Origin: Elusimicrobiales bacterium
GTDB taxonomy: Bacteria; Elusimicrobiota; Elusimicrobia; Elusimicrobiales; UBA9959
Length of the DNA stretch: 64,000 nucleotides
Assembly: GCA_028713125.1 (NCBI GenBank)
Contig: JAQTOU010000009.1
Span: forward strand, 1-64,000
Direction of reading: 5' to 3'
The translations under genes were made by a program, and so were the position numbers. The notes below the pieces were generated by a model. That model was given only the letters and a program-made list of their open reading frames with translations, had not been told where the DNA came from and ran no database searches. Below are positions 5,304-64,000 of this stretch, piece by piece. Within the stretch, counting starts at the first letter, position 1. Each line of letters begins with the position of its first letter.

Positions 5304-5483
5304 AATCTTGTATGCCTCATTTTTGGCTAATCGTCATATTCCGCCCCGGCAAAGGGGTTCCCGGTAAGTTAAAATTGTATGGGGTAAACGGGTCAGAAAG
5401 GGCCGTTTAAGGATATCATATGTATATTTTATTAAAAATGTCCGCGGGTTGGCAACCGAGGAGGGCGTGCGCGGGCAGGTTGG

Positions 5484-7172
5484 CTATTGCTTTACCGACA
5501 TCAAGTATAGTACGCCTTTCCGGGAGGAAAGCGGGGTTGAGTATTCGATCTTGTCCAGCACCTTGAAGCGGGGGTCTGGGGTGAAAGATATGATAGCCTT
5601 GTAGTTTGTGCCTTTCTGCCATTCCCATTCCCCTATCATGTTGAGCGGTTTCATGCTCTTCAGGTAGGCCATGTTCTTCTCATAATTGAACCAGGCTTCA
5701 TAGTCGAAACCGTTTATTATCTCGCCCGGGGCGGTTTCGGCCCGCGGTTTCAGGGCAAGCTCCCATTTCGCCCCGTTCCAGGCCAGGTAATCTTTCATGC
5801 CGGCCCAGGCTAAAGCCGCGCAGAAAACCAGCGTCAGGCCGGCGGCCGGCTTAGAGAAGCGTACCCCCTTCGCCGCGAAGGCCGCGGCGAAAGCGAACCA
5901 GGGCAGCAGCGTAAGCAGGTAGCGGTCGAAGAACTTCGCGCCGGCGAGTGAAACGCCAAGCTGCAGAAGCGCCGCCGCGAAGATAAAGCGCAGCTCCGGT
6001 CCGCCGGCCCGCAGGGCCAGGCTGGAAGCGCACAGCAGCAAAACCGCGGAGACCAGGGAGGCAGCGGTGGCCAGCAGCCAGAAAACCTGGCTTGCGAAAA
6101 GGCCGGAGGGCTTCAGGCCGGCCCCGCCCAGGGTAAGCGCCCCCAGGCCCGAGCGCGAGATGGTGTTTTCAAGGTAAGGCAGCGGGCCGTAGAGGAAAGC
6201 GAAAACGGCCAGCGCGGCCAGGGCCAGCCAGGGACCGGCCGAAGTGACCTTGCGCTGCAGGCCGTTCTTGGAGGAAAAACCGCGCGCGCTGAAGAGAAAG
6301 CCGGCGGCCAGCGGCAGAAGCAGCAGCCCGCTTTCGAGGATGGCGGAAAAGACCCGGTAAACCGAGTCGCCGATAAAAAGGCCGGGCTTCGTTATATGGG
6401 CCAGGGTCGCGCCGACCACATAACTTCCCGAGACCCAGGTCGGTCCGTGTATCCTGGTGAACCAGAATTGATACCCCCCCATAGCGGCAAGAGGCAGGGC
6501 CCAGACCGCGGCGAGGGTGCGCCAGCCCGGGAATGACCGCCGGGGAGAGGGCTGGGCTTTATTTTTCCCTTTAACTTTCTCCACAGGCTGCTGCCCGGCC
6601 CGGCCTTCTAAAAACAGCATGATCGTGAAAGCCAGCGGCAGGGCCACGGCCAGCTGCCTTGTAAGGTAGGCGGCGGCGGCGCAGGCCCCGGCGAAGAAAA
6701 GGGCCCTGCCGTCCCCCGGGTCTTTCAGCCGCCTTACGTAGAAATAAACGGCGGAAAGCATCCAGAAGAGGTAATGGATATCGGTCATGAAGGAGTTCGC
6801 CAGCACCAGGTAGAGAGGGCTGAAAGCCAGCGTGAGGGCGGCGGCCGTTTTTTCAAAAGGCCCTATCTCGAATTCGTCCATGAGCCTGGCAAAAACGAAG
6901 AGGGCCGCGGCCGCGACAAGCAGGTTCGCGGCGCGTAAGACGGAAAAACTGAAGCCAAAGATTTTGGTGAAGAAGGCGCCGGTTATTATATGCGGCAGCT
7001 GCGTCGAAGCCCCCCAGTCCGAAAGGGTGAGCCGGCCGGTCGCGGCAAGCGCCCGCGCGGCCAGGGCGTAGGCCCAGTCGTCGTTCAGCGGAAAATTATA
7101 TTTCCAGGGAGAAAGCGTGGCGGCGAAGATCAGGAATATCGCGCTGGCCGCGTATTTTGCGTATTTGCCCAT
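5484..7172 (-). CDS. Polytopic GT-C-type glycosyltransferase (ArnT/PMT-like)
   Basis: A 562-residue membrane protein with about ten or more hydrophobic segments, an N-terminal anchor and the acidic loop PLNDDWAYA soon after the first helix. That loop resembles the Asp-rich first extracytoplasmic loop of GT-C enzymes, which transfer sugars from polyprenyl-phosphate donors to lipid A, protein or glycans. A short periplasmic-type C-terminal part (about 450-562) follows the last helix. Acceptor and donor cannot be named. The frame also opens at TTG 7181; I prefer ATG 7172, although no strong ribosome site is seen for either. The gene is divergent from the MBL-fold gene at 7278, and is followed leftward by the synthase gene after 180 bases that hold no gene. 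Confidence 0.75.
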   Translation of the reverse strand: MGKYAKYAASAIFLIFAATLSPWKYNFPLNDDWAYALAARALAATGRLTLSDWGASTQLPHIITGAFFTKIFGFSFSVLRAANLLVAAAALFVFARLMDEFEIGPFEKTAAALTLAFSPLYLVLANSFMTDIHYLFWMLSAVYFYVRRLKDPGDGRALFFAGACAAAAYLTRQLAVALPLAFTIMLFLEGRAGQQPVEKVKGKNKAQPSPRRSFPGWRTLAAVWALPLAAMGGYQFWFTRIHGPTWVSGSYVVGATLAHITKPGLFIGDSVYRVFSAILESGLLLLPLAAGFLFSARGFSSKNGLQRKVTSAGPWLALAALAVFAFLYGPLPYLENTISRSGLGALTLGGAGLKPSGLFASQVFWLLATAASLVSAVLLLCASSLALRAGGPELRFIFAAALLQLGVSLAGAKFFDRYLLTLLPWFAFAAAFAAKGVRFSKPAAGLTLVFCAALAWAGMKDYLAWNGAKWELALKPRAETAPGEIINGFDYEAWFNYEKNMAYLKSMKPLNMIGEWEWQKGTNYKAIISFTPDPRFKVLDKIEYSTPLSSRKGVLYLMSVKQ

Positions 7173-7177
7173 AACTT

Positions 7178-7198
7178 CCAAAGTTTACAATACTTTGG
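7178..7198. promoter_or_regulatory. Inverted repeat CCAAAGT-N7-ACTTTGG at a divergent start region
   Basis: A perfect 7-base inverted repeat lies just upstream of the leftward glycosyltransferase start, in the 105-base divergent gap. A third ACTTTGG copy occurs at 7222-7228. The placement suits an operator for the leftward gene, but no regulator can be assigned. Confidence 0.4.
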
Positions 7199-7265
7199 CC
7201 TGGAAGTCGCAGCCCAATGTGACTTTGGTAACTGCGCGTTCTATAATAGATAAGTTATTTGCTAA

Positions 7266-7271
7266 TATTAT
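7266..7271 (+). promoter_or_regulatory. -10 box TATTAT six bases before the start codon
   Basis: TATTAT ends six bases before ATG 7278, so transcription would start at or near the A of the start codon. No Shine-Dalgarno sequence is present. A second hexamer, TATAAT at 7242-7247, could give a conventional leader instead. Confidence 0.45.
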
Positions 7272-7277
7272 ACCGAT

Positions 7278-8117
7278 ATGAAAATAAAATTCTGGGGCGC
7301 GCGGGGGTCGATCCCCGTATCCGGCAAGAACTATGTTAAATACGGCGGCAGCACTACCTGCGTCGAGATCCGGTCAAAAAAAGACGAACTGACGATCATC
7401 GACGCGGGCTCCGGCATACGGCTGCTCGGCAAGGAACTCCTGAAGAAGAAACATCACGATTTCACCATGCTGTTCACCCATTCCCACTGGGACCACGTGC
7501 TGGGTTTCCCCTTTTTCGCCCCCATCTATAATAAGAAGACCCATATAAAAATAATGGGCTGCTCTTTTTCCTCCGATCCCGTCCGCGAGATCATAGCGAA
7601 GACCATGCAGCCCCCCGGCTTCCCTGTTAAGTTCGAGGAGATCTCGGCCCGCTTCGAGTTCGCTACTCTCTGCTCCGGCGGCTGCGAGATAGCCGGTCTC
7701 CAGGTGCAGCCCATAGAGCTCAGCCACCCCAATAACGCGCTGGGCTACAGGTTTTCCGAGGGCGGAAGAAGCTTCGCCTTCCTTACCGACAACGAGCTCG
7801 ACTTTGTCCATCCGGGCGGAAAGAGCTTCGACGATTACGCCGCTTTTTCTCGCGGCGCCGACCTGCTGGTTCACGACGCCGACTATACTCCGGAAGAATA
7901 TCACAGGCGCAGGACCTGGGGCCATTCCACCTGGGAGCAGGCGCTGAACCTCGCGCTTAAGGCCGAGGTCCGCGCGCTGGGGCTATTCCACCATAACCAG
8001 GACCGCTACGACTCTGAGCTGGACCGCATCCTGGCCGAGTGCGCCCGACGCATCAGGAAGGCCGGCTCGCGCCTGAAATGCTTTGCCGTCAAAGAGGGGC
8101 AGGAAGTAAAACTGTAG
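7278..8117 (+). CDS. Metallo-beta-lactamase-fold hydrolase
   Basis: A 279-residue cytoplasmic protein starting with the WGARGSIPVSG segment common in the MBL subgroup that includes cyclic phosphodiesterase-like proteins. The metal-binding motif is THSHWDHVLGF near residue 67, in the HxHxDH position with the first His kept in SHWDH. Further ligands are likely in the LSHPNNALGYRF region and in a LTDNE segment, with a late HH in GLFHHNQDRYDSE. The substrate is not evident; a phosphodiester is the best guess. It is the first gene of a rightward run with a membrane-anchored acidic protein and a barrel/CsgG-like protein. The start is ATG 7278 with no ribosome site. Confidence 0.85.
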   Translation: MKIKFWGARGSIPVSGKNYVKYGGSTTCVEIRSKKDELTIIDAGSGIRLLGKELLKKKHHDFTMLFTHSHWDHVLGFPFFAPIYNKKTHIKIMGCSFSSDPVREIIAKTMQPPGFPVKFEEISARFEFATLCSGGCEIAGLQVQPIELSHPNNALGYRFSEGGRSFAFLTDNELDFVHPGGKSFDDYAAFSRGADLLVHDADYTPEEYHRRRTWGHSTWEQALNLALKAEVRALGLFHHNQDRYDSELDRILAECARRIRKAGSRLKCFAVKEGQEVKL

Positions 8118-8738: not shown

Positions 8739-10118
8739 GTGAAAATATTCCCCGCCATTACGCTAGCACTGGCGCTTTGCGCCGGCAGGGCGCATGGAGG
8801 GCTTTTCCCTAAAAACGCCTTCAGCGACGATGCCAGGGGCCTGACCGGCGCCCAGTTCCTTAAAGTCCCCCCGTCCGCCAGGTTCTCGGCGCTCGCGGGC
8901 TCGGGCCTGGCGCTGGGCGGCGCCGACGCTTTCTTCCTTAATCCGGCCGGAACTATAGGGGCGGGCCGCTCCGTTAGGGTCTCCTATGAGTCGCTGCTGG
9001 AAGCCTCGTCGCGCACGGGCATGGTTTTCTCCAGGCCTTCGGGCCGGGGCGTACTTTCCGCCGGGCTGCTTTATAATAACTTTACACCCGGGCTTGAGAA
9101 GCTGGACGGTTCCGGCGGCGGGACGGGGGCTGAGATCACGGCTTATGACGCCGCGATGGGCGCGGGCTGGGCGAGCCGGCACGGCTGGGTGGATTTCGGC
9201 TTCGTGCTTAAAATTATAAAGTCCCGCCTGGCCGAGGCCTCCGGGACTTCTGCGGCGCTGGACGCGGGGCTCGTCTTCAGGGAGCCGCTTCCCTCGCGCA
9301 CCGAGATGGCCATTGCCGTCCGCAATTTCGGCCCACCGATCAAGGTCGGTTCGGAAAAGGCCCCGCTCCCGTTCGAGCTGGCCGGCGGGCTCAAGTGGAA
9401 GTACACCCCGGATTTCAGCATCCTCATCGAGGGCCGGGTGCCCTGCGACCATGCGCCTTACCTGTCCTTCGCCGGGGAATGGTTCCTGCCCTATTCGGCT
9501 TGGTCCGGCCTGTCCCTGCGCTCGGGTCTCAACTTCAAAAATTACGACGACCACGGCTTCATGGGCGCTTTCGCCGGAGGCTTCGGCCTCAAGCTCGGGG
9601 CGGCTTCTATCGATTACGCTTTCTCCCCCTACGGAGAACTTGGCGCCGCGCACCGTGTGACGGCCGGCCTGGCCTGGGGCGGCGGCGCGGCGGTAACGCC
9701 TCCCGACGTCCCGGCGCTTCCCGTGAAAGCCGGGCTCGCGGTGGCCGCTTTTACCGGGGAAGCCGGCGTGACGGAGACCGAGGCCGCGGTGGTGAGGAAC
9801 CTGCTGGAGGCCGAGCTCGGCAAGACCGGCAGCTTCAGGCTGGTAGAGCGGGCGAGGCTGGATTTTATACTCGAGGAAAACAAAATTTTATATTCCGGCC
9901 TTTCCGAAGAAAAATCGGCGGCTGAGCTCGGCAGGGTTTCCGGGGCGGACCTGGCCGTCTTCGGGTCCGTCGGCAGGGATAAGGACGGCTACCGGATCAC
10001 CGCGCGCCTGGTAGGCTCCTCTTCGGGGATCGTCCTGCGCACCGAGACCGCCGTCGCCGCGGAGGATTATTTATTCCGGGACGCCGCGCGCCGGCTGGCG
10101 GCGGCCATTTCAAAGTAA
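8739..10118 (+). CDS. Outer-membrane barrel (PorV/TraF-like) fused to a CsgG/LpoB-like domain
   Basis: A 459-residue secreted protein starting at GTG 8739, 7 bases after the preceding gene. It has an N-terminal signal peptide (about 1-20, ending near GRAHGG), then a region of alternating beta strands (about 25-310) that begins with the QFLKVPPSARFSALAGSG and FFLNPAG motifs typical of PorV/TraF-like outer-membrane proteins. From about 325 to the end comes a domain starting VAAFTG and containing LVERARLDFILEE and VFGSVGR, the pattern of CsgG/LpoB-type lipoprotein domains. The two families are usually separate proteins, so the fusion is notable. It could couple an outer-membrane channel or anchor to a periplasmic assembly factor; no client is visible. 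Confidence 0.8.
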   Translation: MKIFPAITLALALCAGRAHGGLFPKNAFSDDARGLTGAQFLKVPPSARFSALAGSGLALGGADAFFLNPAGTIGAGRSVRVSYESLLEASSRTGMVFSRPSGRGVLSAGLLYNNFTPGLEKLDGSGGGTGAEITAYDAAMGAGWASRHGWVDFGFVLKIIKSRLAEASGTSAALDAGLVFREPLPSRTEMAIAVRNFGPPIKVGSEKAPLPFELAGGLKWKYTPDFSILIEGRVPCDHAPYLSFAGEWFLPYSAWSGLSLRSGLNFKNYDDHGFMGAFAGGFGLKLGAASIDYAFSPYGELGAAHRVTAGLAWGGGAAVTPPDVPALPVKAGLAVAAFTGEAGVTETEAAVVRNLLEAELGKTGSFRLVERARLDFILEENKILYSGLSEEKSAAELGRVSGADLAVFGSVGRDKDGYRITARLVGSSSGIVLRTETAVAAEDYLFRDAARRLAAAISK

Positions 10119-10610
10119 CTACTTTTCCTCAAGCATCTTGACGCGCCACGCGTTCCTTACCGCCGGGTCCAGCTTGGCCGCCATCCTGGCCGCCGCGAGG
10201 GCCTTATCCTTTTCTCCCAGCTTCTCGTACACTTCGCTCAGGCGCTCGAAATAGGCCGCGTTCGCCGGGTCATTCGCCACATACCGCTCAAGCAGGCGGG
10301 CCTCGGCGCGCTGGCGGCGGCTGACCTTGGCCGCGCGGGCTTTATAGGCGGTTTCTTTGTATATCCCGAAGGTGCCCAGGCATGCCAGCAGGGCCAGGTC
10401 GTAGAACAAGGCGGAAGCGGGCCAGGCCATGATCACGATCGTATTAGTGAAGTAAACCATCATCCCCACCAGGGATGCGACGAGGAAGGCGTCGGTGAAA
10501 GAGAACGAGCCCTGTCCGTATTTCTTTTCTCTTCGCTCCAGTACCCACACCAGCGCCCAGGCATAAGCCAGCGCGAAAACGATGCAATAAACCGTTATCA
10601 ATATGACCAT
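10119..10610 (-). CDS. Membrane protein with a C-terminal TPR-like region
   Basis: A 163-residue protein with a hydrophobic N-terminal helix (MVILITVYC...), two more hydrophobic segments near 48-85, and a C-terminal TPR-like helical pair (about 115-155) with LLERYVANDPANAAYFERL followed by a basic-acidic helix. The frame is open to 10718, but ATG 10610 is chosen because it forms a TGATG junction with the inositol monophosphatase stop, the upstream part would lie inside that gene, and the TM helix starts right at this Met. It is the last gene of the leftward kinase-phosphatase-TPR operon. Function unknown; TPR regions usually mediate protein contacts. Confidence 0.75.
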   Translation of the reverse strand: MVILITVYCIVFALAYAWALVWVLERREKKYGQGSFSFTDAFLVASLVGMMVYFTNTIVIMAWPASALFYDLALLACLGTFGIYKETAYKARAAKVSRRQRAEARLLERYVANDPANAAYFERLSEVYEKLGEKDKALAAARMAAKLDPAVRNAWRVKMLEEK

Positions 10611-54608: not shown

Positions 54609-54673
54609 GTGATATCTATTTTAGTTTTTTATGACGGGGAAAACAAATGTATAATTCCCGGGGAGGGCAATTT

Positions 54674-56092
54674 ATGATAAGAAAACCGGCTGTCGCGGGC
54701 AAGTTTTACGAGGCGCGCCCAGAGAAACTGCGCGCGGAGGTTAAAAGCTTTCTTAAGCCAGGGATCGTCCCGGCCGGCCGCGCCGTCGGCTTCCTTTCCC
54801 CCCATGCCGGGTATACTTACTCCGGAGCGGCTGCCGGAGTCGCTTTCGCTCCCTTTAAGAATTTTGACTTCGATACGCTGGTGATAATGGCCACAGGGCA
54901 TACGATGGGCCTTTTAAAGGGCGCGCTGCTGGCCAAAGGCTCTTTTGAGACCCCGCTCGGTGTGGTGGAAATCGATTCTGATTTTTGCTCCGAGCTTCTC
55001 AAAGAAAAAAAACTTTTCGAGGATATTCCCCAAGCGCACGAGGACGAGCATGCTGTCGAGGTGCAGCTGCCTTTCCTGCAGGCGCTAAAGGGAAACGCGG
55101 TTAAAATAGTCCCCCTCCTTTTTAATTCATCCGACGTTCCCCTGCTTGAAGAAACCGGGCGCGCTATAGGGCGCGCTATGAAAGGCCGCAAGGCGCTTTT
55201 CTGCGTTTCCTCCGACCTCTCGCATTACCCGCCCGGCAAGATCGCCGAGATCTCTGACCGTTCCGTGCTTCTGGCCCTGCGGCAGGCAATGCGCAATTCA
55301 AGTCCGGCATATTTTGAAATGGCTAATTCCCTGCTGCTCTCTAAAACTTCTCAATACCTGGATACCACCGCCTGCGGGCAGGCCGCTATGACGGTGGGCG
55401 CCGCCGCGGCGCTTGAGCTGGGCTGCAATGATTTCGAACTTGCCCTTTACACTCATTCCGGCAAGGTCTCCGGAGACGAAAGCGCGGTAGTCGGCTATGG
55501 CGCGGGGTATTTTACCGAAGCTTCGCCGAAGCCCGCCGGGGCTCTCGACCTGTCCCCGGAGATGAAGAACGAACTTCTCGCGCTCGCTCGGAAAAGCATA
55601 AGCGCAGGCATGAAAACAGTCAAGGCCCCGCAGCAGCCGCTAAGCCCAAGGCCGGAATTCAACCAGCCCGCCGCCATCTTCGTTACTCTTACGCTGGATG
55701 GTGACCTGCGCGGCTGCATAGGCAGTCTTGAGCCGCGCGCCGCGCTTTCAGACATGGTCGCTTCCTATGCCTGCTCGGCGGCTTTTGAGGACCCCAGGTT
55801 CGAACGCGTCTCGGAGGCCGAATTAAAGAAGATAAATATAGAGATCTCCGTGCTTTCGCCGCTGGAGCGTATTAAATCGGCCGACGCCGTAAAACCGGGC
55901 GTCCACGGTGTTTATGTCAGGAGCGGCCGACGCTCCGGAACTTATCTCCCCCAGGTCTGGGAGCATTTCAAGAAGAAGGAAGATTTCCTCTCCTCTCTCT
56001 GCATGGAGAAAGCCGGCCTGGCCGCCGACGCCTGGAAAGGTAAAGATATAGAGCTTTACACTTACACGGTAAACCCTTTTACCGAGAAATAA
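54674..56092 (+). CDS. Memo-AMMECR1 fusion (AmmeMemoRadiSam system proteins B and A)
   Basis: A 472-residue two-domain protein. The Memo domain (about 1-275) has SPHAGYTYSG, HEDEHAVEVQLPFL, SSDLSHYPP and TACGQAAM, which hold the metal-binding His and Cys positions of Memo. The AMMECR1 domain (about 300-470) has the hallmark LRGCIGSLEPR. The third component in this conserved trio is a dedicated radical SAM enzyme, which is not adjacent; the only radical SAM protein in the window (61646) is of another type. ATG 54674 is chosen for its GGGGAGGG site; the frame opens earlier at 54647. It precedes the CoA operon by 53 bases, which carry that operon's probable promoter. Confidence 0.93.
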   Translation: MIRKPAVAGKFYEARPEKLRAEVKSFLKPGIVPAGRAVGFLSPHAGYTYSGAAAGVAFAPFKNFDFDTLVIMATGHTMGLLKGALLAKGSFETPLGVVEIDSDFCSELLKEKKLFEDIPQAHEDEHAVEVQLPFLQALKGNAVKIVPLLFNSSDVPLLEETGRAIGRAMKGRKALFCVSSDLSHYPPGKIAEISDRSVLLALRQAMRNSSPAYFEMANSLLLSKTSQYLDTTACGQAAMTVGAAAALELGCNDFELALYTHSGKVSGDESAVVGYGAGYFTEASPKPAGALDLSPEMKNELLALARKSISAGMKTVKAPQQPLSPRPEFNQPAAIFVTLTLDGDLRGCIGSLEPRAALSDMVASYACSAAFEDPRFERVSEAELKKINIEISVLSPLERIKSADAVKPGVHGVYVRSGRRSGTYLPQVWEHFKKKEDFLSSLCMEKAGLAADAWKGKDIELYTYTVNPFTEK

Positions 56093-56104
56093 GTTTGGTA
56101 TAAT
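56077..56104 (+). promoter_or_regulatory. Probable promoter of the pantothenate/CoA operon
   Basis: TATAAT at 56099-56104 with a weak -35 (TTTTAC, 56077-56082, spacing 16) overlapping the end of the Memo-AMMECR1 gene. The leader to ATG 56146 contains AAAGGA, somewhat far from the start. Confidence 0.5.
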
Positions 56105-56145
56105 TACTTAGCGGACTTGATCCCCAAAGGACAGGTACCCACGGT

Positions 56146-56835
56146 ATGAAAAGATCTTACGGCATCGCCGGCAACGGCCGCGCTTCCACCCATCTCCAGG
56201 CCTATTTCAGGCTTCTTAAAATCCCGTATAAACTTTGGCACAGGTGCTCAGGGCTCAGGCCCGAAGCCGCCCTCGGCGGCTGCTCCGTGGTCTTCGTGCT
56301 TATTAAAGACGAGGCCATCGCCCCGTTCATCGCCGCCAACCCTTTCCTTAAAGGCAAAACGCTTATCCATTTCTCCGGCAGCCTGGACGTGGAAGGCGCT
56401 TATACGATGCACCCTTTCATGCCGCTGTCGGAAAGCCCGCTCTCGCTTACGGAATACCGCCGGCTCGCTTTCGCGCTGGAGCCCGGCGTTTCGCTGAGAA
56501 GGCTCGTGCCGGAATTCCCCAACCCCGTCATAAGAATAAAGAAAGGCGAGAAAAAACTTTACCACGCTCTCTGCGCTCTCGGGGCCAATCTGCCCGTGAT
56601 CCTCTGGCAGAAAGCGATGCGGGACCTGAGCGGGAAATTCGGCATACCGCGCGAGCAGATACAGAATTATTTCCAGGCTTCCCTCGATAATTTCGGGAGG
56701 GACCCGGCCCGCGCCCTGAGCGGCCCTATCGCCCGGCGCGACGCGCAGACGGTAGCTGCCGATATAAAAGCGCTTGGCAAAGACTCTTACGGGAAAATAT
56801 ATTCGGCGTTCGCTAAAACCTATGAAAATAACTGA
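56146..56835 (+). CDS. panG: Rossmann-like/DUF2520 protein, probable PanG-type ketopantoate reductase
   Basis: A 229-residue protein with a degenerate N-terminal Rossmann motif (GIAGNGRAS) and a helical C-terminal DUF2520-like domain (about 130-225). The central part contains MHPFMPLS, a segment typical of the group. Proteins of this kind, separate from PanE and IlvC, act as ketopantoate reductase (PanG) in Francisella, converting ketopantoate to pantoate. Here the gene directly precedes panB with a 14-base overlap and starts a complete pantothenate operon with no panE, so this role is likely. The identity rests on context and weak family resemblance. Confidence 0.7.
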   Translation: MKRSYGIAGNGRASTHLQAYFRLLKIPYKLWHRCSGLRPEAALGGCSVVFVLIKDEAIAPFIAANPFLKGKTLIHFSGSLDVEGAYTMHPFMPLSESPLSLTEYRRLAFALEPGVSLRRLVPEFPNPVIRIKKGEKKLYHALCALGANLPVILWQKAMRDLSGKFGIPREQIQNYFQASLDNFGRDPARALSGPIARRDAQTVAADIKALGKDSYGKIYSAFAKTYENN

Positions 56836-57658
56836 CTTCTACGGCTACAAAAAAACCGGGCGCAAGATCTCGATGATAACGGCTTATGACTCGACCATGG
56901 CCGCGCTCGCCGCGGAATCGGCGGTGGACTGTGTCCTCGTCGGGGACAGTTTGGCCATGGTCATGCACGGGCAGGACTCGACGATAGCGGCCACGGTGGA
57001 GATGATGGCGCTACATACCGCGGCGGTGGCGCGCGCGGTAAAAGGGAAACTGATAGTCGCCGATATGCCTTTCCTTTCGGTGCGCAAAGGACTGCAGCCG
57101 GCGATGGAGGCTGTTGAAAAACTGGCCAGGGCGGGCGCGCAGGCCGTTAAAATAGAAGGACTGGAAGGTCATGAAGAAATAATCTCGCACATAGTTAAGT
57201 CGGATATGCCGGTGATGGGGCATCTCGGCCTTACGCCGCAGTCGATAAATAAATTCGGCGGCTACAAAGCCCAGGGAAAAGACCAGGCTTCGGCCGAACG
57301 GCTTGTCGCCCAGGCGCAGGAGCTCGAGCGGCTCGGCTGCTTCGCTCTGGTGCTTGAATGCGTGCCGGAGCGGCTGGCCGGGCGGATAACGAATCTCCTT
57401 AAGATCCCTGTAATCGGCATCGGCGCCGGGCCCGCCACGGACGGCCAGGTTCTTGTGATGCAGGATATGCTGGGCCTTTACGGCGAGCCCCCCTCCTTCG
57501 TGAAGAAATACCTCGACGGGCGCCGGCTGGTCGTGGACGCTCTTAATAATTTTGACAGCGAAGTTAAAAATTCGGTATTCCCGGAGACGAAACATGGTGA
57601 TAGTGAAAGAAACGGCGAAGTGGCGGAAGCTCCGTACAAGTCCGCTCTTCGCCGGTAA
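56822..57658 (+). CDS. panB: 3-methyl-2-oxobutanoate hydroxymethyltransferase
   Basis: A 278-residue TIM-barrel enzyme that adds a hydroxymethyl group from methylene-tetrahydrofolate to 2-ketoisovalerate, giving ketopantoate. The signatures ITAYDSTMA, VLVGDSLAMVMHG, ADMPFLS, KIEG, MGHLGLTPQS and GIGAGPATDGQVLV are intact. ATG 56822 is chosen; it overlaps the panG-like gene by 14 bases. The C-terminus runs 65 bases into panC, an unusually long overlap. Length is near the family norm, with an extra hydrophilic tail of about 15 residues encoded by the overlap. Confidence 0.96.
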   Translation: MKITDFYGYKKTGRKISMITAYDSTMAALAAESAVDCVLVGDSLAMVMHGQDSTIAATVEMMALHTAAVARAVKGKLIVADMPFLSVRKGLQPAMEAVEKLARAGAQAVKIEGLEGHEEIISHIVKSDMPVMGHLGLTPQSINKFGGYKAQGKDQASAERLVAQAQELERLGCFALVLECVPERLAGRITNLLKIPVIGIGAGPATDGQVLVMQDMLGLYGEPPSFVKKYLDGRRLVVDALNNFDSEVKNSVFPETKHGDSERNGEVAEAPYKSALRR

Positions 57659-58367
57659 AAGCATAGGTTTTGTTCCTACTATGGGAGCCCTGCACGAGGG
57701 GCATCTCTCGCTTTTTCGGCGGGCTAAAGAAGAGAATGAACTGGCCGTGGCCAGTATTTTCGTGAATCCCGCCCAGTTCAACGACAAGCGCGATCTTAAG
57801 ATCTACCCCCGGACTCTTGAGGCGGATATTGAAAAACTCGAGTCCGAAAATACGGATTTCATTCTGCTCCCATCGGCCAGGGAGATGTACCCGGACGGCT
57901 ACAGGTACAGGGTCAATGAAACGGCTGAAAGCGGCGTCCTCTGCGGCGCTCACAGGCCGGGACATTTCGAAGGCGTTCTTACCGTGGTGATGAAACTGCT
58001 TAATCTGGTCCGCGCAGACAGGGCTTACTTCGGTGAGAAAGACTATCAGCAGCTGCATCTGATCAGGGGCATGGCCGAGGCTTTCTTCGTCGATACGGAA
58101 ATCGTCCCCTGCGCGACCCTTCGCGAGAAGGACGGCCTGGCTATGAGCTCGCGCAATCTGCTTCTCGAGCCGGAACACAGGAAGCTGGCCCCCGCTCTTT
58201 ATAAAGCGCTGCGCTCTAAAGCGCGTCCCGCCGCGATAAAGAAAGATCTGGCCGCTCTCGGTTTCAGCCCGGATTACGTCGAGGAGCGCTGGGGCCGCAG
58301 GTTCGCCGCCGCCAAACTCGGGAAAGTGAGGCTTATAGACAATGTCAAACTTGCGTTTGTGCCGTAA
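57594..58367 (+). CDS. panC: Pantothenate synthetase
   Basis: A 257-residue ligase joining pantoate and beta-alanine with ATP. The nucleotidyltransferase motif VPTMGALHEGHLSL (HEGH as the HxGH signature) is near residues 27-40; VNPAQF, the GEKDYQQ segment and a KMS-like SSRN follow. The start ATG 57594 has GGAG 8 bases upstream and fits the family N-terminus, so the 65-base overlap with panB seems real. The C-terminal domain is shorter than in E. coli PanC (about 283 residues). The gene overlaps coaC by 26 bases. Confidence 0.95.
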   Translation: MVIVKETAKWRKLRTSPLFAGKSIGFVPTMGALHEGHLSLFRRAKEENELAVASIFVNPAQFNDKRDLKIYPRTLEADIEKLESENTDFILLPSAREMYPDGYRYRVNETAESGVLCGAHRPGHFEGVLTVVMKLLNLVRADRAYFGEKDYQQLHLIRGMAEAFFVDTEIVPCATLREKDGLAMSSRNLLLEPEHRKLAPALYKALRSKARPAAIKKDLAALGFSPDYVEERWGRRFAAAKLGKVRLIDNVKLAFVP

Positions 58368-58929
58368 CAAACACGGTGTGCTCGGACGGCCAAGATCTAA
58401 AGGAAATATCCTGTTCCAGCTGACCGGCTCCATCGCATGTTATAAAGCCTGCAATGTGATCTCGAAGCTCGTGCAGGAAGGCTGCGACGTTAAGACCGTC
58501 TGCTCCGTGAACGCGCTGAAGTTCATAGGAAAGTCGACGCTGGAAGGGCTTACCCATAATGCCGTTTACGTCGACACTTTCGAGGACAGATCGGCGCTCG
58601 AGCATATAGAGCTCACTAAATGGATGGACCTGGCCATAATCTGCCCCGCTACCGCGAATATCATCAACAAGATGGCAGCCGGCATAGGCGACGATTATAT
58701 TTCAACTATCTTCCTTGCTTTCGATTTCAAGAAGCCCTATCTTGTCGCCCCGGCTATGAACCAGAATATGTGGGCCCATCCGGCCACAAAGCGCTCGGTC
58801 GACATACTTGAGGGCTGGGGCGTGAAAATGATCGGCCCGGGAACCGGCTACCAGGCCTGCGGAGACAAAGGCGCCGGCCGGCTGTCCGAGCCCGACGCTA
58901 TCTATAAGGAAATAAAGAAAAACTTATGA
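58342..58929 (+). CDS. coaC: Phosphopantothenoylcysteine decarboxylase (stand-alone CoaC)
   Basis: A 195-residue flavoprotein of the HFCD family that decarboxylates 4'-phosphopantothenoylcysteine. Seen motifs are the FMN-binding LTGSIACYKA, the active-site His in EHIELTKWMD, PAMNQNMW and the Cys in GYQACGDKGAGRL. In most bacteria CoaC is fused to CoaB; here it is separate. The N-terminus carries about 22 residues more than expected before the first strand; GTG 58378 would be a shorter start. It overlaps panC by 26 bases and coaB by ATGA. Confidence 0.93.
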   Translation: MSNLRLCRNKHGVLGRPRSKGNILFQLTGSIACYKACNVISKLVQEGCDVKTVCSVNALKFIGKSTLEGLTHNAVYVDTFEDRSALEHIELTKWMDLAIICPATANIINKMAAGIGDDYISTIFLAFDFKKPYLVAPAMNQNMWAHPATKRSVDILEGWGVKMIGPGTGYQACGDKGAGRLSEPDAIYKEIKKNL

Positions 58930-59606
58930 AAGTTCTTCTTACCTTCGGCGGGACGCGTGAATATATAGACGCCGCCCGCTTTATAACCAATATGAGCACC
59001 GGCAGGACCGGGCGAATAATAGCGGAGCGCTTCGCCGCGTCCGGCTGCAAAACTGTCTGTCTTTGCGCGCAGGGCGCCGCGCGGCCCTCCGGCGCTAATA
59101 TCGCCGTAAAAGAATTTACGACCTTCAAGGACCTCGACCTCTTGCTTAGGCTGGTTCTAAAAGAGCAGGCCTTCGACGCCGTAGTGCATTTGGCGGCTGT
59201 AAGCGATTATTCCCCCGCCACTATAGAGGCCGGCGGGAAAACGTTCAAGCCCGGCCGGACGGCAAAGCTGGATTCGAAAGCGCCGGAGCTTAAGCTGGTC
59301 CTGAAAAAGAATTTCAAGATCATAGACCGGATCAAGAAATACGCGGCCGCCGGCGGCGGAACGGAACCGCTGCTTATAGGCTTCAAGCTCACTTCGGGCG
59401 CCGCTCCGGCGCGCGTCCTTGAAAAAGTCCGTGCCCTGGCTTCTGCCGACCTGGTAGCGCACAATGACCTGGAGGAGATGAAGAAGAAGCACGTTTTCCA
59501 TCTCTACAGGGACGGCGGCAGGCTGGCCGACTGCGGCGGGCCTGAAGAACTGGCCGACCGGCTGCTTTCTGAAATTAAAAACAAGGCGGAGGCGATATGC
59601 TCTTAG
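58926..59606 (+). CDS. coaB: Phosphopantothenate-cysteine ligase (stand-alone CoaB)
   Basis: A 226-residue ligase that joins phosphopantothenate and cysteine. The motifs GGTREYIDAARFITN-STG, HLAAVSDY, KLDSKAPELKLVL and GFKL are seen; the last two regions bind nucleotide and the acyl intermediate. In most bacteria this domain follows CoaC in one chain; here the coding sequences are split by an ATGA overlap (58926-58929), leaving the order coaC-coaB. It overlaps coaX by 10 bases. Confidence 0.93.
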   Translation: MKVLLTFGGTREYIDAARFITNMSTGRTGRIIAERFAASGCKTVCLCAQGAARPSGANIAVKEFTTFKDLDLLLRLVLKEQAFDAVVHLAAVSDYSPATIEAGGKTFKPGRTAKLDSKAPELKLVLKKNFKIIDRIKKYAAAGGGTEPLLIGFKLTSGAAPARVLEKVRALASADLVAHNDLEEMKKKHVFHLYRDGGRLADCGGPEELADRLLSEIKNKAEAICS

Positions 59607-60376
59607 CTCTAGACGTAGGCAATACCCAGATATACGGCGGCGTCTTCAAGGACGATAAATTGCTGGCCAGGTTCCGCGCGACGTCCGGAAGTTCCACCTC
59701 CGACGAGTTCGGAACCTTCTTCAAAAGCGCGCTGCGGGAGAACGGTATCGATCCTAAAGATATAAAAGAACTGGCTATCTGCTCCGTGGTCCCCGACCTG
59801 ATCTACGCGCTCCACCAGGCTTCGCTTAAATATTTCGGGCTCGAGCCTTTTCTGCTCCAGGGCGGGATCAAGACCGGGTTGAACATCAAATACAAGAACC
59901 CTCTTGAGGTCGGCGCCGACAGGATAGCGAACGCGATAGCGGCCTCCGGGATGTTCCCCGACAAGGACCTCGTGATAGTGGACCTTGGGACGGCCACGAC
60001 TTTCTGCGCCGTTTCCAAAAAGAAGGAATACCTGGGCGGCGTGATAATGCCCGGCCTGCGCATTTCGATGGAAGCGCTTGCTTCCCGCACGGCCAAGCTG
60101 CCCCGGGTCGAAATAGCCAAACCCGCCGAGCTGGTCGGCAAGACCACGATAGACTCGATCCAGTCCGGCCTGTATTATTCCAGCCTGCTTGCCATAACCG
60201 GTATCTCGGCGAAGATAAAGAGCGATTACTTTTCCGACGAAGCGCTTGTGATAGGCACCGGCGGTTTCTCGAAACTGTTCGAGGACGCCGGTATTTTCGA
60301 CCGCGTGATCCCCGACCTGGTGCTGCTTGGCATAGCCGCCGCCGTGCGGCTCAATAAAGAAAGGAGCTTGAAATGA
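59597..60376 (+). CDS. coaX: Type III pantothenate kinase
   Basis: A 259-residue kinase phosphorylating pantothenate, of the type not inhibited by CoA. The family motifs DVGNTQIYGG (about 6-15), NPLEVGADRIAN (about 99-110) and DLGTATTF are present. In the last one, GTATTFD usually follows; here the residue is Cys (GTATTFCAV), an unusual change. The enzyme acts between panC and coaB in the pathway. It overlaps coaB by 10 bases and panD by ATGA (60373-60376). ATG 59597 follows AGGCGGAGGCG as ribosome site. Confidence 0.94.
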   Translation: MLLALDVGNTQIYGGVFKDDKLLARFRATSGSSTSDEFGTFFKSALRENGIDPKDIKELAICSVVPDLIYALHQASLKYFGLEPFLLQGGIKTGLNIKYKNPLEVGADRIANAIAASGMFPDKDLVIVDLGTATTFCAVSKKKEYLGGVIMPGLRISMEALASRTAKLPRVEIAKPAELVGKTTIDSIQSGLYYSSLLAITGISAKIKSDYFSDEALVIGTGGFSKLFEDAGIFDRVIPDLVLLGIAAAVRLNKERSLK

Positions 60377-60750
60377 TCAGGACATTGATGAAGTCTAAAA
60401 TCCACCGCGCGGCGGTGACGCAGACGGATATAAACTATAACGGCTCCATTACCATAGACCGGGAGCTTTGCCTTAAGGCCGACCTGCTCGAGAACGAGAA
60501 GGTGGACATCTATAATGTGAACACCGGAGCAAGGTTCTCCACTTATGTGCTGTACGGCAGGAAGGGCATCATAGGCGTGAACGGCGCGGCGGCCCGCCTG
60601 GTGCAGAAAGGCGACCTGGTAATAATAGTTTCCTATGCGCAATACGCGCCGGAGGAATGCGTAGGACACGTTCCTACCGTAGTCTGCATGCAGAAAAGCG
60701 CACCGGGAAAGACCGGTCACGCTGAAACCCTTATAGGCGCCGCGGCATGA
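60373..60750 (+). CDS. panD: Aspartate 1-decarboxylase
   Basis: A 125-residue pyruvoyl enzyme that makes beta-alanine from aspartate. The self-cleavage site is the Gly-Ser in INYNGSITID (about residues 21-30), where the Ser becomes the pyruvoyl group. Other conserved parts are SKIHRAAVT, the Arg in GARFSTY, and NGAAARLVQKGD. It provides the beta-alanine used by PanC, closing the local pathway. It overlaps coaX by ATGA and the flavoprotein gene by 4 bases. Confidence 0.97.
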   Translation: MIRTLMKSKIHRAAVTQTDINYNGSITIDRELCLKADLLENEKVDIYNVNTGARFSTYVLYGRKGIIGVNGAAARLVQKGDLVIIVSYAQYAPEECVGHVPTVVCMQKSAPGKTGHAETLIGAAA

Positions 60751-61649
60751 AACGGGCAGAGACCGGGAAAGCCGGCGCCGCCCCGCTTGACGCCGTAGTG
60801 ATAGGCGGCGGACCTTCTGGTCTGGCCGCAGGGACCCATCTCGCCAGGGCGGGCTATACAACAATACTAATAGAGAGAAAGGCCCTCGGCGGCCAGGCGC
60901 GCGGCCTGGAGCGGATAGAGAATTATCCCGGTTTCCCCCGCGGCGTTTCCGGCTTAAAACTGATGGAGCTTTGGCTCGAGCAGGCCTGGCGCTGGGGGCT
61001 GAAGACCAAAATAGACGAGGCTGTAACAGTATCCCGCGGAACCGACGGGATCTTCCTCGTCCGTCTAAGGAAGGGCGGCGTAATACGCTCCCGCTCGGTT
61101 CTCTGGTGCGCCGGGGCCGGGTTCCGCAAGCTGGGCGTGCCGGGAGAGGACAGGCTGCTTGGCAAAGGGGTCTGGAACACCTGCGACGAGGCGCCTTCCT
61201 GCGCCGGCCTGGACGCGGCCGTGGTGGGCTCGGGAGAGACCGCCGTGCAGCAGGCGGAACTGCTCTCGCGGAAAGCCGCGAGGGTTTACCTTATAAGCAG
61301 GACGGAGAAGCTCAAGGCCCATAAGCTTCTGCTGGAGAGGTTCGCCCGCAGCTCCGCGGCGGCGCTCCCTGGCTACAGGGTCAACCGCCTACTCGGCAAG
61401 AATAAACTCGAGGCTTTGGAATTGATTTCAGTGTCGGGGCCGCGCGAAGTAAAAAAGATAAAGGTGGACGCTCTTTTTACTCTTATAGGCAAAGAGCCGG
61501 CGGAAGTTCCGGCCGGGTGGCGGCGCAAGCCCGCGGGTTTCTATGAAGCGGGAGACTTCTCTGCCGGGATCTTCAGGCAGGTAGCAGTGGCGGGCGGGGA
61601 CGGTATTCGGGCGGCGATGCGCTGCATAAGATATCTGGAGGCAATGTGA
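60747..61649 (+). CDS. Thioredoxin-reductase-like flavoprotein lacking the CxxC pair
   Basis: A 300-residue FAD/NAD(P)H enzyme. The FAD loop GGGPSGLAAG is near 20-29, GGQARGLERIENYPGFP follows (core GGQARG and IENYPGF), and the NADPH loop is VGSGETAVQQA (about 160-170). In thioredoxin reductase the sequence before that loop reads CATCDG; here it is NTCDEAPSC, with C146 in the position of the second Cys, and another Cys at 152. So it cannot do the usual dithiol exchange. Related TrxR-like enzymes reduce ferredoxin or flavodoxin. The overlaps with panD and the following radical SAM gene suggest that it supplies electrons to that enzyme. Confidence 0.85.
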   Translation: MKRAETGKAGAAPLDAVVIGGGPSGLAAGTHLARAGYTTILIERKALGGQARGLERIENYPGFPRGVSGLKLMELWLEQAWRWGLKTKIDEAVTVSRGTDGIFLVRLRKGGVIRSRSVLWCAGAGFRKLGVPGEDRLLGKGVWNTCDEAPSCAGLDAAVVGSGETAVQQAELLSRKAARVYLISRTEKLKAHKLLLERFARSSAAALPGYRVNRLLGKNKLEALELISVSGPREVKKIKVDALFTLIGKEPAEVPAGWRRKPAGFYEAGDFSAGIFRQVAVAGGDGIRAAMRCIRYLEAM

Positions 61650-63184
61650 AAGAGCTGAAGATAATAGAACGGCGCGAGGTTCCGGGCCTGGCCGGGCTTT
61701 ACCTGGCCGAGCTCCCCGGCGAAGGGATGCGGATGATAGAGTTCGTGGATACCGTTGAGCCGGGCGTGCGCAAAGAAGATAAATGGGTCCTCATGATCTC
61801 AACGCAGTTCGGCTGCGCCGTCGGCTGCCGGATGTGCGACGCCGGGGCGATGGGCTTCCACGGCAATCTTACGGCCGGCGAGATGCTGGCCCAGGTGCGC
61901 AAAGTGATTTCCGAAAATCCCGGCCTCGATCCCCGCGCCCATCCTAAATTCAAGATCCACTTCGCCCGGATGGGCGAGCCCGCGCTCAATCCGGCCGTCC
62001 TTGAAGCGCTCGAGCGCCTTCCTTCGGAAATGCCTTTCCCCGGCCTTATGCCCAGCCTTTCCACGGTCGCGCCGAAGACGCCGGAAGCGGAAGCTTTCCT
62101 CGAGCGGCTTATAGGGATAAAGGACGCCCATTTCTCCGGCGGGAAATTCCAGCTTCAGTTCTCCGTGCATTCCACCGAAGCCGCGCTTAGAAAAAAGATA
62201 GTTCCGGTCCCGGTGTGGAGCCCCGCTGAAATAGCGGCTTACGGAAAACGTTTCGTCCGCCCCGGCGACAGGAAGATAACTCTTAACTTCGCTCTTCCCG
62301 AGGGGGAGCGGCTGGACGTTGAAGAACTTAGGAGCGTTTTTAACCCGGCTTTGTTCCTTGTCAAAGTAACCCCGGTCAATCCTACCTATACGGCCGACCT
62401 GAGCGGCTCTTCCTATGTCTGGAGCAATCCCCCCGCCGGTCTCTCGGAAGACGCGGCCGCCCTCGAGAAAGGCGGCTTCACCGTAATAATCTCGCCCAGC
62501 TCAAGGGAAGAAATAGAAGGCGAGACCTCCTGCGGCCAGCTCTGGGCCTCGCGAATGAAGAAGCGCGCCGCGGACGGTACGCGGGCGGCGGCAAGGCGCG
62601 CCAGAGCTCTGCCCTTCAATTGGGAGCGCTCGGCCCTCCTCGTGGTGGATATGCAGGAGTTCTTCCTGAGCCCCGGCTCACCGGCTCATATGCCGCAGGC
62701 TTTACCGGCGCTGGCCAATGCCGCGCGGCTGGCAGCTTCTTTCAGGGAAGCTGGGCGGCCGGTGCTTTTTACTTCGCACGCGCACGAAGACCCCGCCCTG
62801 GACGGTGGGCTGATGATGCAGTGGTGGAAAAAAGTCTGCCTGGCCGGCACGCCGGAGGCGGAGGTTTCCCCCGCCCTTGCGCCGCTCGGCGGAGAAGTCT
62901 TCAGGAAATGCCGCTACAGCGCTTTCGCCGACGGGAAGCTGGCTGAAAGGCTGAAGGAGCTGGGCGTGGATTCGCTGGTGGTAGCCGGGCTTAAGACCAA
63001 TTTGTGCGTGGAGTCCACCGTGCGGGACGCTTTCGACCTGGGTTTTATGTGCATCGCCGCCCGGGACGCCATGGCCGCGCGTACTGAAGAACTGCACATG
63101 GCTTCGCTCGCCGGCATGGCCGACGGTTTTGCTATGGTGCGGTGTACAGCAGAGATACTCGCCGAGGCCAAAGTTCCGGTATAA
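61646..63184 (+). CDS. RlmN-like radical SAM domain fused to an isochorismatase-like cysteine hydrolase
   Basis: A 512-residue fusion, starting at GTG 61646 with a 4-base overlap. The N-terminal domain (about 1-320) has the radical SAM cluster motif C57-x3-C61-x2-C64 and the following NLTAGEML and ARMGEPALNP segments of RlmN/Cfr proteins. The methyl-carrying Cys of RlmN is matched by C296 in SCGQL, but the second essential Cys (before the cluster) is Met 50. The C-terminal domain (about 328-510) has the isochorismatase triad D335, K421 and C454 (VVDMQ, FRKCRYSAF and NLCVEST). This suggests a two-step modification or hydrolysis enzyme. The upstream flavoprotein may be its electron donor. The substrate is unknown. 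Confidence 0.85.
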   Translation: MKELKIIERREVPGLAGLYLAELPGEGMRMIEFVDTVEPGVRKEDKWVLMISTQFGCAVGCRMCDAGAMGFHGNLTAGEMLAQVRKVISENPGLDPRAHPKFKIHFARMGEPALNPAVLEALERLPSEMPFPGLMPSLSTVAPKTPEAEAFLERLIGIKDAHFSGGKFQLQFSVHSTEAALRKKIVPVPVWSPAEIAAYGKRFVRPGDRKITLNFALPEGERLDVEELRSVFNPALFLVKVTPVNPTYTADLSGSSYVWSNPPAGLSEDAAALEKGGFTVIISPSSREEIEGETSCGQLWASRMKKRAADGTRAAARRARALPFNWERSALLVVDMQEFFLSPGSPAHMPQALPALANAARLAASFREAGRPVLFTSHAHEDPALDGGLMMQWWKKVCLAGTPEAEVSPALAPLGGEVFRKCRYSAFADGKLAERLKELGVDSLVVAGLKTNLCVESTVRDAFDLGFMCIAARDAMAARTEELHMASLAGMADGFAMVRCTAEILAEAKVPV

Positions 63185-63256: not shown

Positions 63257-64000
63257 CTAATTGAATGTACACCCCAGGGAAACCCTGAGCCACCGCCCGG
63301 GGGCGCCGGCGCCGGGTATTTCCTCGTAGTCGGCGTTCAAAAGGTTAGTCACCCCGGCCGTCGCTTCGAAAGCCCCGTATTTTTTGCTGAATTCAGTGTC
63401 CGCAAGTACATAGCCCTTTTCCTTCACTCTCTTCACCGCCGAGAAGTTAAGCGCGAGCGCCGCCCCGCGCGGGAACAGGTATTTCAGCCAAAGCGCGCCT
63501 TTATGCCTGGCATAGCGCATTGAATATTTCGACAGGTAGTTGTCGCCCGGGCTGTCTTTGTAGATATAGGAATAATTCAGAGAGGCGCGAAGCGCGCCTA
63601 TCGCGCTTACAAGGGTCTCCTCGGCGCCCCACACTTTCACTTTCCCGATATTGTTCGCTGTCCAGGGCCCGGAGGCGCCCGGCCTCGTCCAGTCAAGAAG
63701 GTTCGATTCGTTCCTCCGGTAAACGGCGGCGCGCAAGCTGAAGGTCTTGGCCGGCTTCCAGTCCAGCCCTGTTTCGTACGCTGCGCTTTTCTCGGGCTTA
63801 AGGGCTGAATTGCCGATATTCGACGGGTCGTGGTAATAAAGCTCGGTAAAGGAGGGCGCGCGGAACGACTTGCCCGCCGCCGCCCAGAGCCTGGCTCCTT
63901 CCGACAGGGCGAGCCCGAGCCGCAGGCCCGGAGAGGTCTGCCAGCCCCAGGAGGAATGCCTGTCATTGCGGATGCCGGCGTCGAGATCCAGCCCGAGGGG
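63257..64000 (-). CDS. TonB-dependent outer-membrane receptor, C-terminal part
   Basis: The frame is open from the right edge to the stop at 63257, giving about 248 residues of the C-terminal barrel; the start, plug and TonB box lie outside. The segment SFRAPSFTELYY followed by NSALKPEKS and YETGL is the classic TonB-dependent receptor pattern (F-APS-ELY, N-LKPE-S). The end has LLNADYEEI and the final strand RWLRVSLGCTFN, closing with an aromatic-Asn end. Receptors of the BtuB/FecA type import cobalamin, siderophores or glycans; the ligand cannot be named from this part. It converges with the radical SAM fusion gene. Confidence 0.9.
   Translation of the reverse strand, partial: PLGLDLDAGIRNDRHSSWGWQTSPGLRLGLALSEGARLWAAAGKSFRAPSFTELYYHDPSNIGNSALKPEKSAAYETGLDWKPAKTFSLRAAVYRRNESNLLDWTRPGASGPWTANNIGKVKVWGAEETLVSAIGALRASLNYSYIYKDSPGDNYLSKYSMRYARHKGALWLKYLFPRGAALALNFSAVKRVKEKGYVLADTEFSKKYGAFEATAGVTNLLNADYEEIPGAGAPGRWLRVSLGCTFN

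Follow-up and report, generated by a model that had tools for sequence, protein, structure and literature searches.

A CxxC-less flavoprotein, an RlmN-derived radical-SAM enzyme and an isochorismatase-type hydrolase form a conserved module, the last two often being fused in Elusimicrobiota

Two genes at the end of a pantothenate/coenzyme A (CoA) operon raise the question of which reaction an RlmN-like radical S-adenosylmethionine (SAM) enzyme may catalyze when it lacks an essential cysteine and is joined to a hydrolase. The genes lie in a 64,000-nucleotide stretch of DNA, hereafter the window (positions 1-64,000, forward strand, of contig JAQTOU010000009.1; Elusimicrobiales bacterium, GCA_028713125.1). 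The first (60747-61649; this and the other module features are on the plus strand) encodes a 300-residue thioredoxin reductase (TrxR)-like FAD/NAD(P)H flavoprotein without CxxC. The second open reading frame (ORF; 61646-63184), whose GTG start overlaps the flavoprotein stop, encodes a 512-residue radical SAM-isochorismatase fusion. Both ORFs of the original prediction were confirmed, and M50, C57/C61/C64, C296, D335, K421 and C454 are all present as it had noted. AlphaFold2 models of the flavoprotein and the fusion protein have predicted local distance difference test (pLDDT) scores of 94.7 and 94.5, respectively. With slightly better than even confidence, we read the window as carrying, in the fused form seen in Elusimicrobiota, a three-enzyme module composed of an NAD(P)H flavoprotein, an RlmN/Cfr-derived radical-SAM enzyme and an amide/ureide-type hydrolase, the mechanism of which we infer below.

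The radical-SAM domain and the cysteine it lacks

Residues 1-310 of the fusion (61646-62575) were assigned by profile, fold and alignment to an RlmN-derived radical-SAM domain that has no N-terminal RNA-binding domain. Its best solved fold is that of Sphaerobacter 6fz6 (26% identity), with E. coli RlmN also matching. The domain does not reach the curated RlmN-type scores (TIGR00048, 64.8 bits versus a cut-off of 290; PRK14464, 68.4 versus 422), and in the tree its family splits from RlmN with full support (100/100) on a branch of 2.33.

The classic example of two cysteines sharing one radical methylation is provided by RlmN and Cfr. In these enzymes Glu105 activates Cys355, and the Cys118/Cys105 thiolate serves as an essential base in resolving the covalent adduct with RNA (PMC9692996, PMC13001441). 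Profile-profile alignment with RlmN (hhalign) pairs E32 (61739-61741) with Glu105, the base activating the methyl-carrying cysteine; M50 (61793-61795) with Cys118; C57/C61/C64 (61814-61837) with the CxxxCxxC ligands of the [4Fe-4S] cluster; and C296 (62531-62533) with the methyl carrier Cys355. A MAFFT placement of the Glu105 equivalent at residue 16 was superseded by this alignment. The cluster ligands are kept in 86/86 family members and C296 in all 84 complete sequences, and E32 is invariant in 23 diverse members. The Met that the original prediction had placed at the Cys118 site is thereby confirmed, and 0/86 relatives have Cys there; the site is instead occupied by Met (49), Ile (15), Leu (15), Thr (4), Arg (1) and others. 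Cys118 is present in 16/16 RlmN-type controls, taken from the surveyed genomes and E. coli, and all three other RlmN-like genes of the window genome encode it. Since the site varies (M, I, L, T, R, H, W), Met50 was ruled out as a catalytic residue; on sequence grounds, the conserved feature of position 50 is the absence of Cys, not Met. With the Glu105 and Cys355 equivalents kept and Cys118 never present, the family therefore appears to retain the methyl-loading half of the mechanism without the resolving half.

The substrate side of the enzyme is also altered. Ala107 stands at the position of RlmN Met176, a residue proposed to stabilize the thiyl radical, and the pocket has R108 for Gly, Q171 for Ala, N214 for Glu and K240 for Asn; D65, A107-R108, Q171, N214, K240 and C296 make up the family signature. 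Only 53 residues precede CxxxCxxC in the family versus at least 106 in RlmN, so that the N-terminal domain is missing, and the net charge per 100 residues is -0.15 versus +2.8. In RlmN/Cfr, this domain and its positive charge bind RNA (PMC13001441). Thus, the enzyme resembles RlmN/Cfr in the radical-SAM fold, CxxxCxxC, the MGEP motif and the equivalents of Glu105 and methyl-carrying Cys355, and differs in having no Cys118/Cys105, RNA-binding domain or basic charge and in being tied to a hydrolase and a flavoprotein. The changed pocket, the missing RNA-binding domain and the near-neutral charge argue for a small-molecule substrate. Together with the family-wide loss of Cys118, the last two features also favor the earlier proposal that the reaction differs from that of RlmN.

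The flavoprotein and the hydrolase

The flavoprotein shares both GxGxxG sites and the overall fold with low-Mr thioredoxin reductase (32% identity to D. radiodurans TrxR) but lacks its redox-active CxxC, and scores 186.5 bits against TIGR01292, for which the cut-off is 343. CxxC is absent in 79/80 of the flavoproteins, the lone match being a genuine TrxR paralogue that adjoins the module in L139. At this locus (also numbered L055), the genuine CxxC thioredoxin reductase is encoded immediately upstream of the CxxC-less protein (5632-6558 and 6423-7451). The original prediction had described the window protein as having lost the first Cys of CxxC. No CxxC is indeed present, but the whole motif is missing family-wide and the remaining Cys146 is replaced by H, Y, A or S in the nearest relatives; a functional role for this leftover cysteine was ruled out because it is not conserved. 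The FAD/NAD(P)H binding motifs are kept (G20/G22/G25 in 75/75, G161/G163 in 80/80). The model matches the flavin-reducing TrxR structure 5mh4 (template-modeling (TM) score 0.87) and poorly the flavin-oxidizing 5mjk (0.56), the pattern one would expect of a protein that lacks a disulfide to reduce. Known TrxR-like ferredoxin-NADP reductases share the loss of CxxC but carry an additional C-terminal segment stacked on FAD (PMC10294844); the AlphaFold2 chain of the window protein stops at helix 279-299. The flavoprotein may act as an electron donor.

Residues 329-503 of the fusion (62630-63154) form an isochorismatase-superfamily hydrolase domain that meets the PF00857 threshold (E 3e-45). The catalytic triad D335, K421 and C454 (62648-63007) is intact and highly conserved (D 72/72, K 76/77, C 75/76). 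The closest fold is that of NicF maleamate amidohydrolase (TM 0.90, 31% identity); RutB and the biuret and triuret hydrolases BiuH and TrtA are also among the nearest. All four hydrolyze linear amides or ureides. The domain has the D-K-C triad and fold of these enzymes and YecD, and differs from them in its fusion to, or shared operon with, a radical-SAM enzyme and in a conserved WW motif. The DxH metal motif of nicotinamidases was not found in the sequence, there being no DxHP near H378, and PRK11609 gives 33.6 bits versus a cut-off of 174. Judging from these features, the module enzymes are not RlmN, not TrxR and not nicotinamidase. One fused protein (L074, genome G270) has its catalytic hydrolase Cys replaced by Gly (THLGVE) and no TrxR-like gene nearby, which would be a natural loss of hydrolase activity.

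A three-gene module in bacteria and archaea

A survey of 295 Elusimicrobiota genomes, in which a close relative of the radical-SAM enzyme was defined by a match better than 1e-45, found carriers in approximately 41. The radical-SAM and hydrolase domains are fused in 29/40 loci and encoded by split but adjacent genes in 6/40. A sequencing error at the joint is ruled out, as the fusion is open in those 29 loci, and the fusion of the original prediction is real. The TrxR-like gene lies within 3 kb in 32/40 loci, and several of the remainder sit at contig ends. In a wider scan with one genome per species, at least 545 relatives were encoded, and among the best 80 are members of Chloroflexota, Aminicenantes, Acidobacteriota, Planctomycetota, Acetothermia, Zixibacteria, Krumholzibacteriota, Hydrothermus, Thermoplasmata and Heimdallarchaeota. 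Outside Elusimicrobiota, the same domains are three separate adjacent genes in the order isochorismatase, TrxR-like flavoprotein, radical SAM, with the flavoprotein gene adjacent in 46/48 loci and the isochorismatase gene within 3 kb in 41/48. The fusion thus traces back to a conserved set of three genes that stands on its own; no fourth gene was common to the loci in the neighborhood comparisons.

Consistent linkage is accompanied by co-divergence. The pairwise distances of the three proteins correlate with r of 0.88-0.91 overall and 0.72-0.79 without Elusimicrobiota (Mantel p 0.001). The best-supported reading is a self-contained, NAD(P)H-fed pathway of three co-diverging enzymes, centered on an RlmN-derived radical-SAM enzyme with one catalytic cysteine and a small-molecule substrate, with the fusion as a derived Elusimicrobiota state. 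The functional link between flavoprotein, radical-SAM enzyme and isochorismatase drawn by the original prediction is supported by this conservation of the module in bacteria and archaea. Only 3/249 genomes of one Chloroflexota class carry the module, which is therefore sparse. The tree mixes phyla, with the Elusimicrobiota members L045 and L046 falling inside the wide group, suggesting transfer between lineages. At L047 (genome G089), two divergent copies of the radical-SAM domain lie near each other (4711-5949 and 8776-10446); the first is on a very long branch and has no hydrolase.

Candidate reaction and rival explanations

Given the anatomy, conserved residues and losses, linkage and co-divergence described above, the module most likely contains an NAD(P)H-fed radical enzyme that would perform Cys-bound methylene chemistry on a small molecule also handled by the amidase. 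The flavoprotein would take hydride from NAD(P)H and, having no disulfide, would either supply the [4Fe-4S] cluster of the radical-SAM enzyme with electrons, with or without ferredoxin as an intermediary, or reduce the substrate itself. E32 would deprotonate C296, which would take a methyl group from a first SAM; a second SAM would give the 5'-deoxyadenosyl (5'-dA) radical and from it a Cys-CH2 radical. The latter could add at an sp2 carbon in a small unsaturated substrate, heteroaromatic or of another kind, that residues including R108, Q171, N214 and K240 would hold in place. With Cys118 lacking, resolution of the adduct might fall to a different base, to the acidity of the substrate itself or to electrons from outside. 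The isochorismatase domain would hydrolyze the product (or the precursor) at an amide, imide or ureide bond, and the fusion may channel the intermediate. The direction proposed originally, flavoprotein feeding followed by hydrolysis, is plausible. We entertain more tentatively the possibility that the family performs a hitherto undescribed class of cysteine-methylene radical chemistry with a metabolite as substrate, in which C296 is methyl-loaded as in RlmN and the reaction finished by another route (e.g., one-carbon transfer, ring expansion or ring opening). In both bacteria and archaea, a dedicated flavoprotein and an amidase might then complete the route to an uncharacterized cofactor or salvage compound, and phages may have borrowed the radical enzyme.

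Several points weigh against this three-enzyme reading. There is no detectable TrxR-like gene at L060, L072, L073 and L074 and no detectable isochorismatase gene at L110, L113 and L126; the partners may therefore be replaceable or encoded elsewhere. The FAD-stacking C-terminal extension of the ferredoxin reductases is absent from the flavoprotein model, the methylation of C296 is presumed from homology with RlmN, and the genomic contexts point several ways.

One of these contexts comes from phages. Relatives of the radical-SAM enzyme are encoded on 80 IMG/VR contigs (L160-L239; phrog_24834, E 7e-32 against the window protein), for example in Bacteroides phage Versailles (ON453897, 15696-16703). 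The signature D65, A107-R108, Q171, N214, K240 and C296 holds in these proteins, C296 being present in 78/78 complete sequences, and the Cys118 site is Thr in 80/80 and Cys in 0/80. Unlike the window enzyme, they are stand-alone, have Asn rather than Gln after CG, and occur near NAD-salvage genes instead of the trio partners. NAD-salvage genes (NAPRTase, NadE, PncA) are present in 13/50 whole phage records, and in 8 of these 13, with some copies being near relatives and not all independent, one lies within 5 kb of the radical-SAM gene. The expected number is 1.3; 20,000 random placements never yielded as many as 8, and the ribonucleotide reductase control gave 0/9 within 5 kb. Some copies directly adjoin NadE, PncA-like or FMN-reductase-like genes. 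For the phage branch, NAD salvage is thus a genuine lead. A pyridine- or NAD-related enzyme, with the radical-SAM protein modifying or repairing a nicotinamide-type compound and the isochorismatase partner serving as amidase of the same route, would also suit the cellular partners, an isochorismatase-superfamily hydrolase and an NAD(P)H flavoprotein. We nevertheless consider it unlikely, though the strongest of the rivals. The phage branch is distant in the tree (branch 2.3), the hydrolase lacks the nicotinamidase features, and the neighborhood survey found no NAD genes near cellular modules. NAPRTase occurs in 12/295 Elusimicrobiota genomes and in none of the approximately 41 carriers, which rules out nicotinate salvage (Preiss-Handler) via NAPRTase in these carriers. 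The nicotinamide-like substrate suggested by the original prediction may accordingly still apply, its genomic link lying in the phage branch and not in the cellular module.

The cellular neighborhoods could instead indicate a module for maintenance or maturation of cofactors of anaerobic metalloenzyme and pterin systems (Wood-Ljungdahl, molybdopterin, other radical-SAM enzymes). In one Chloroflexota clade (L154, L132, L138, L128, L147, L126), the trio lies inside Wood-Ljungdahl/CODH-like clusters, with DUF3786 upstream, CooC-like ATPases downstream, and AcsE/MetV-like and CODH/ACS-like genes, some of these names being given from sequence appearance. In Elusimicrobia, the module adjoins genes for MoaA, MoeA, AhbD-like and B12-binding radical-SAM proteins, and radical-SAM genes make up 15/72 module neighbors versus an estimated ~1.6% of genes (~50 per 3.2-Mb genome); DHPS adjoins the module in L144. 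However, the contexts differ between clades, and at six Elusimicrobia loci the radical-SAM gene just downstream belongs to one orthologous B12-binding family (cluster 4; L092:8635-10596, L095, L097, L099, L104, L106). Acetyl-CoA synthase (ACS) has no strong match in Elusimicrobiota carriers (G151 only, weak, 1.4e-14) and is present in 25/47 other carriers. This patchy co-occurrence means that the module is not strictly tied to the Wood-Ljungdahl pathway, and a strict accessory role in it is ruled out by the ACS survey. Cofactor maturation in the broader sense appears somewhat less probable than a pyridine-related role. Two further leads were dropped: PADLOC yielded only marginal generic matches for antiphage defense, and no neighbor at the examined loci matched the orphan-SelD isochorismatase lead (PMC5029168).

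Slightly less probable again is an adenosine methylase of tRNA or rRNA, or another RNA modifier, that resolves its crosslink without Cys118. The clear RlmN/Cfr homology and the retained Glu105 and Cys355 equivalents speak for such an enzyme. Against it, the cysteine essential in RlmN/Cfr (PMC9692996, PMC13001441) is absent in all 86 family and 80 phage members, the RNA-binding domain and basic charge are missing, the pocket residues are changed, the window genome already has three RlmN-like genes with Cys118, and the partners are metabolic enzymes.

The operon position had suggested a CoA-related substrate. The operon upstream of the module encodes a MEMO1-AMMECR1 fusion, DUF2520, PanB, PanC, CoaC-like, CoaB-like, CoaX and PanD (54647-60750, plus strand), and ATGA/GTGA overlaps, read from the sequence, join the PanD, flavoprotein and fusion ORFs, which therefore look translationally coupled. 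A pantetheine/CoA-pathway enzyme, for which this coupled tail in the window and its close relatives would argue, is very improbable, as pan/coa genes adjoin the module only in the window's genus and family (L048, L049, L051-L054), are not among the shared neighbors at other loci, and many same-genus genomes lack the module. The pan/coa operon is the context of the window's clade only and lies outside the module. The inference of a CoA or pantetheine substrate from operon position was accordingly rejected; of the pan/coa and TrxR-like genes whose linkage the original prediction proposed to map, it is the TrxR-like gene that travels with the radical-SAM and hydrolase domains. The MEMO1-AMMECR1-like fusion protein at the operon head (54647-56092; named from sequence appearance) is kept in the window's relatives. 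Convergent with the module, the minus strand at 63257-64000 encodes the C-terminal part of what looks, from sequence appearance only, like a TonB-dependent outer-membrane receptor.

We found no description of such a three-enzyme module in the literature covered, which did not extend to subscription papers and most preprints. For its genes, the homology names 'RNA methyltransferase', 'thioredoxin reductase' and 'hydrolase' would mislead. A broad family in which the methyl-carrying Cys and the Glu base are kept but the resolving Cys is absent throughout offers nature's own test of how the covalent adduct can be resolved. The module is of interest because it probably catalyzes a novel reaction with a small molecule as substrate, and it points to an undescribed three-enzyme pathway occurring thinly across bacterial and archaeal phyla; phages encode relatives of its radical enzyme.

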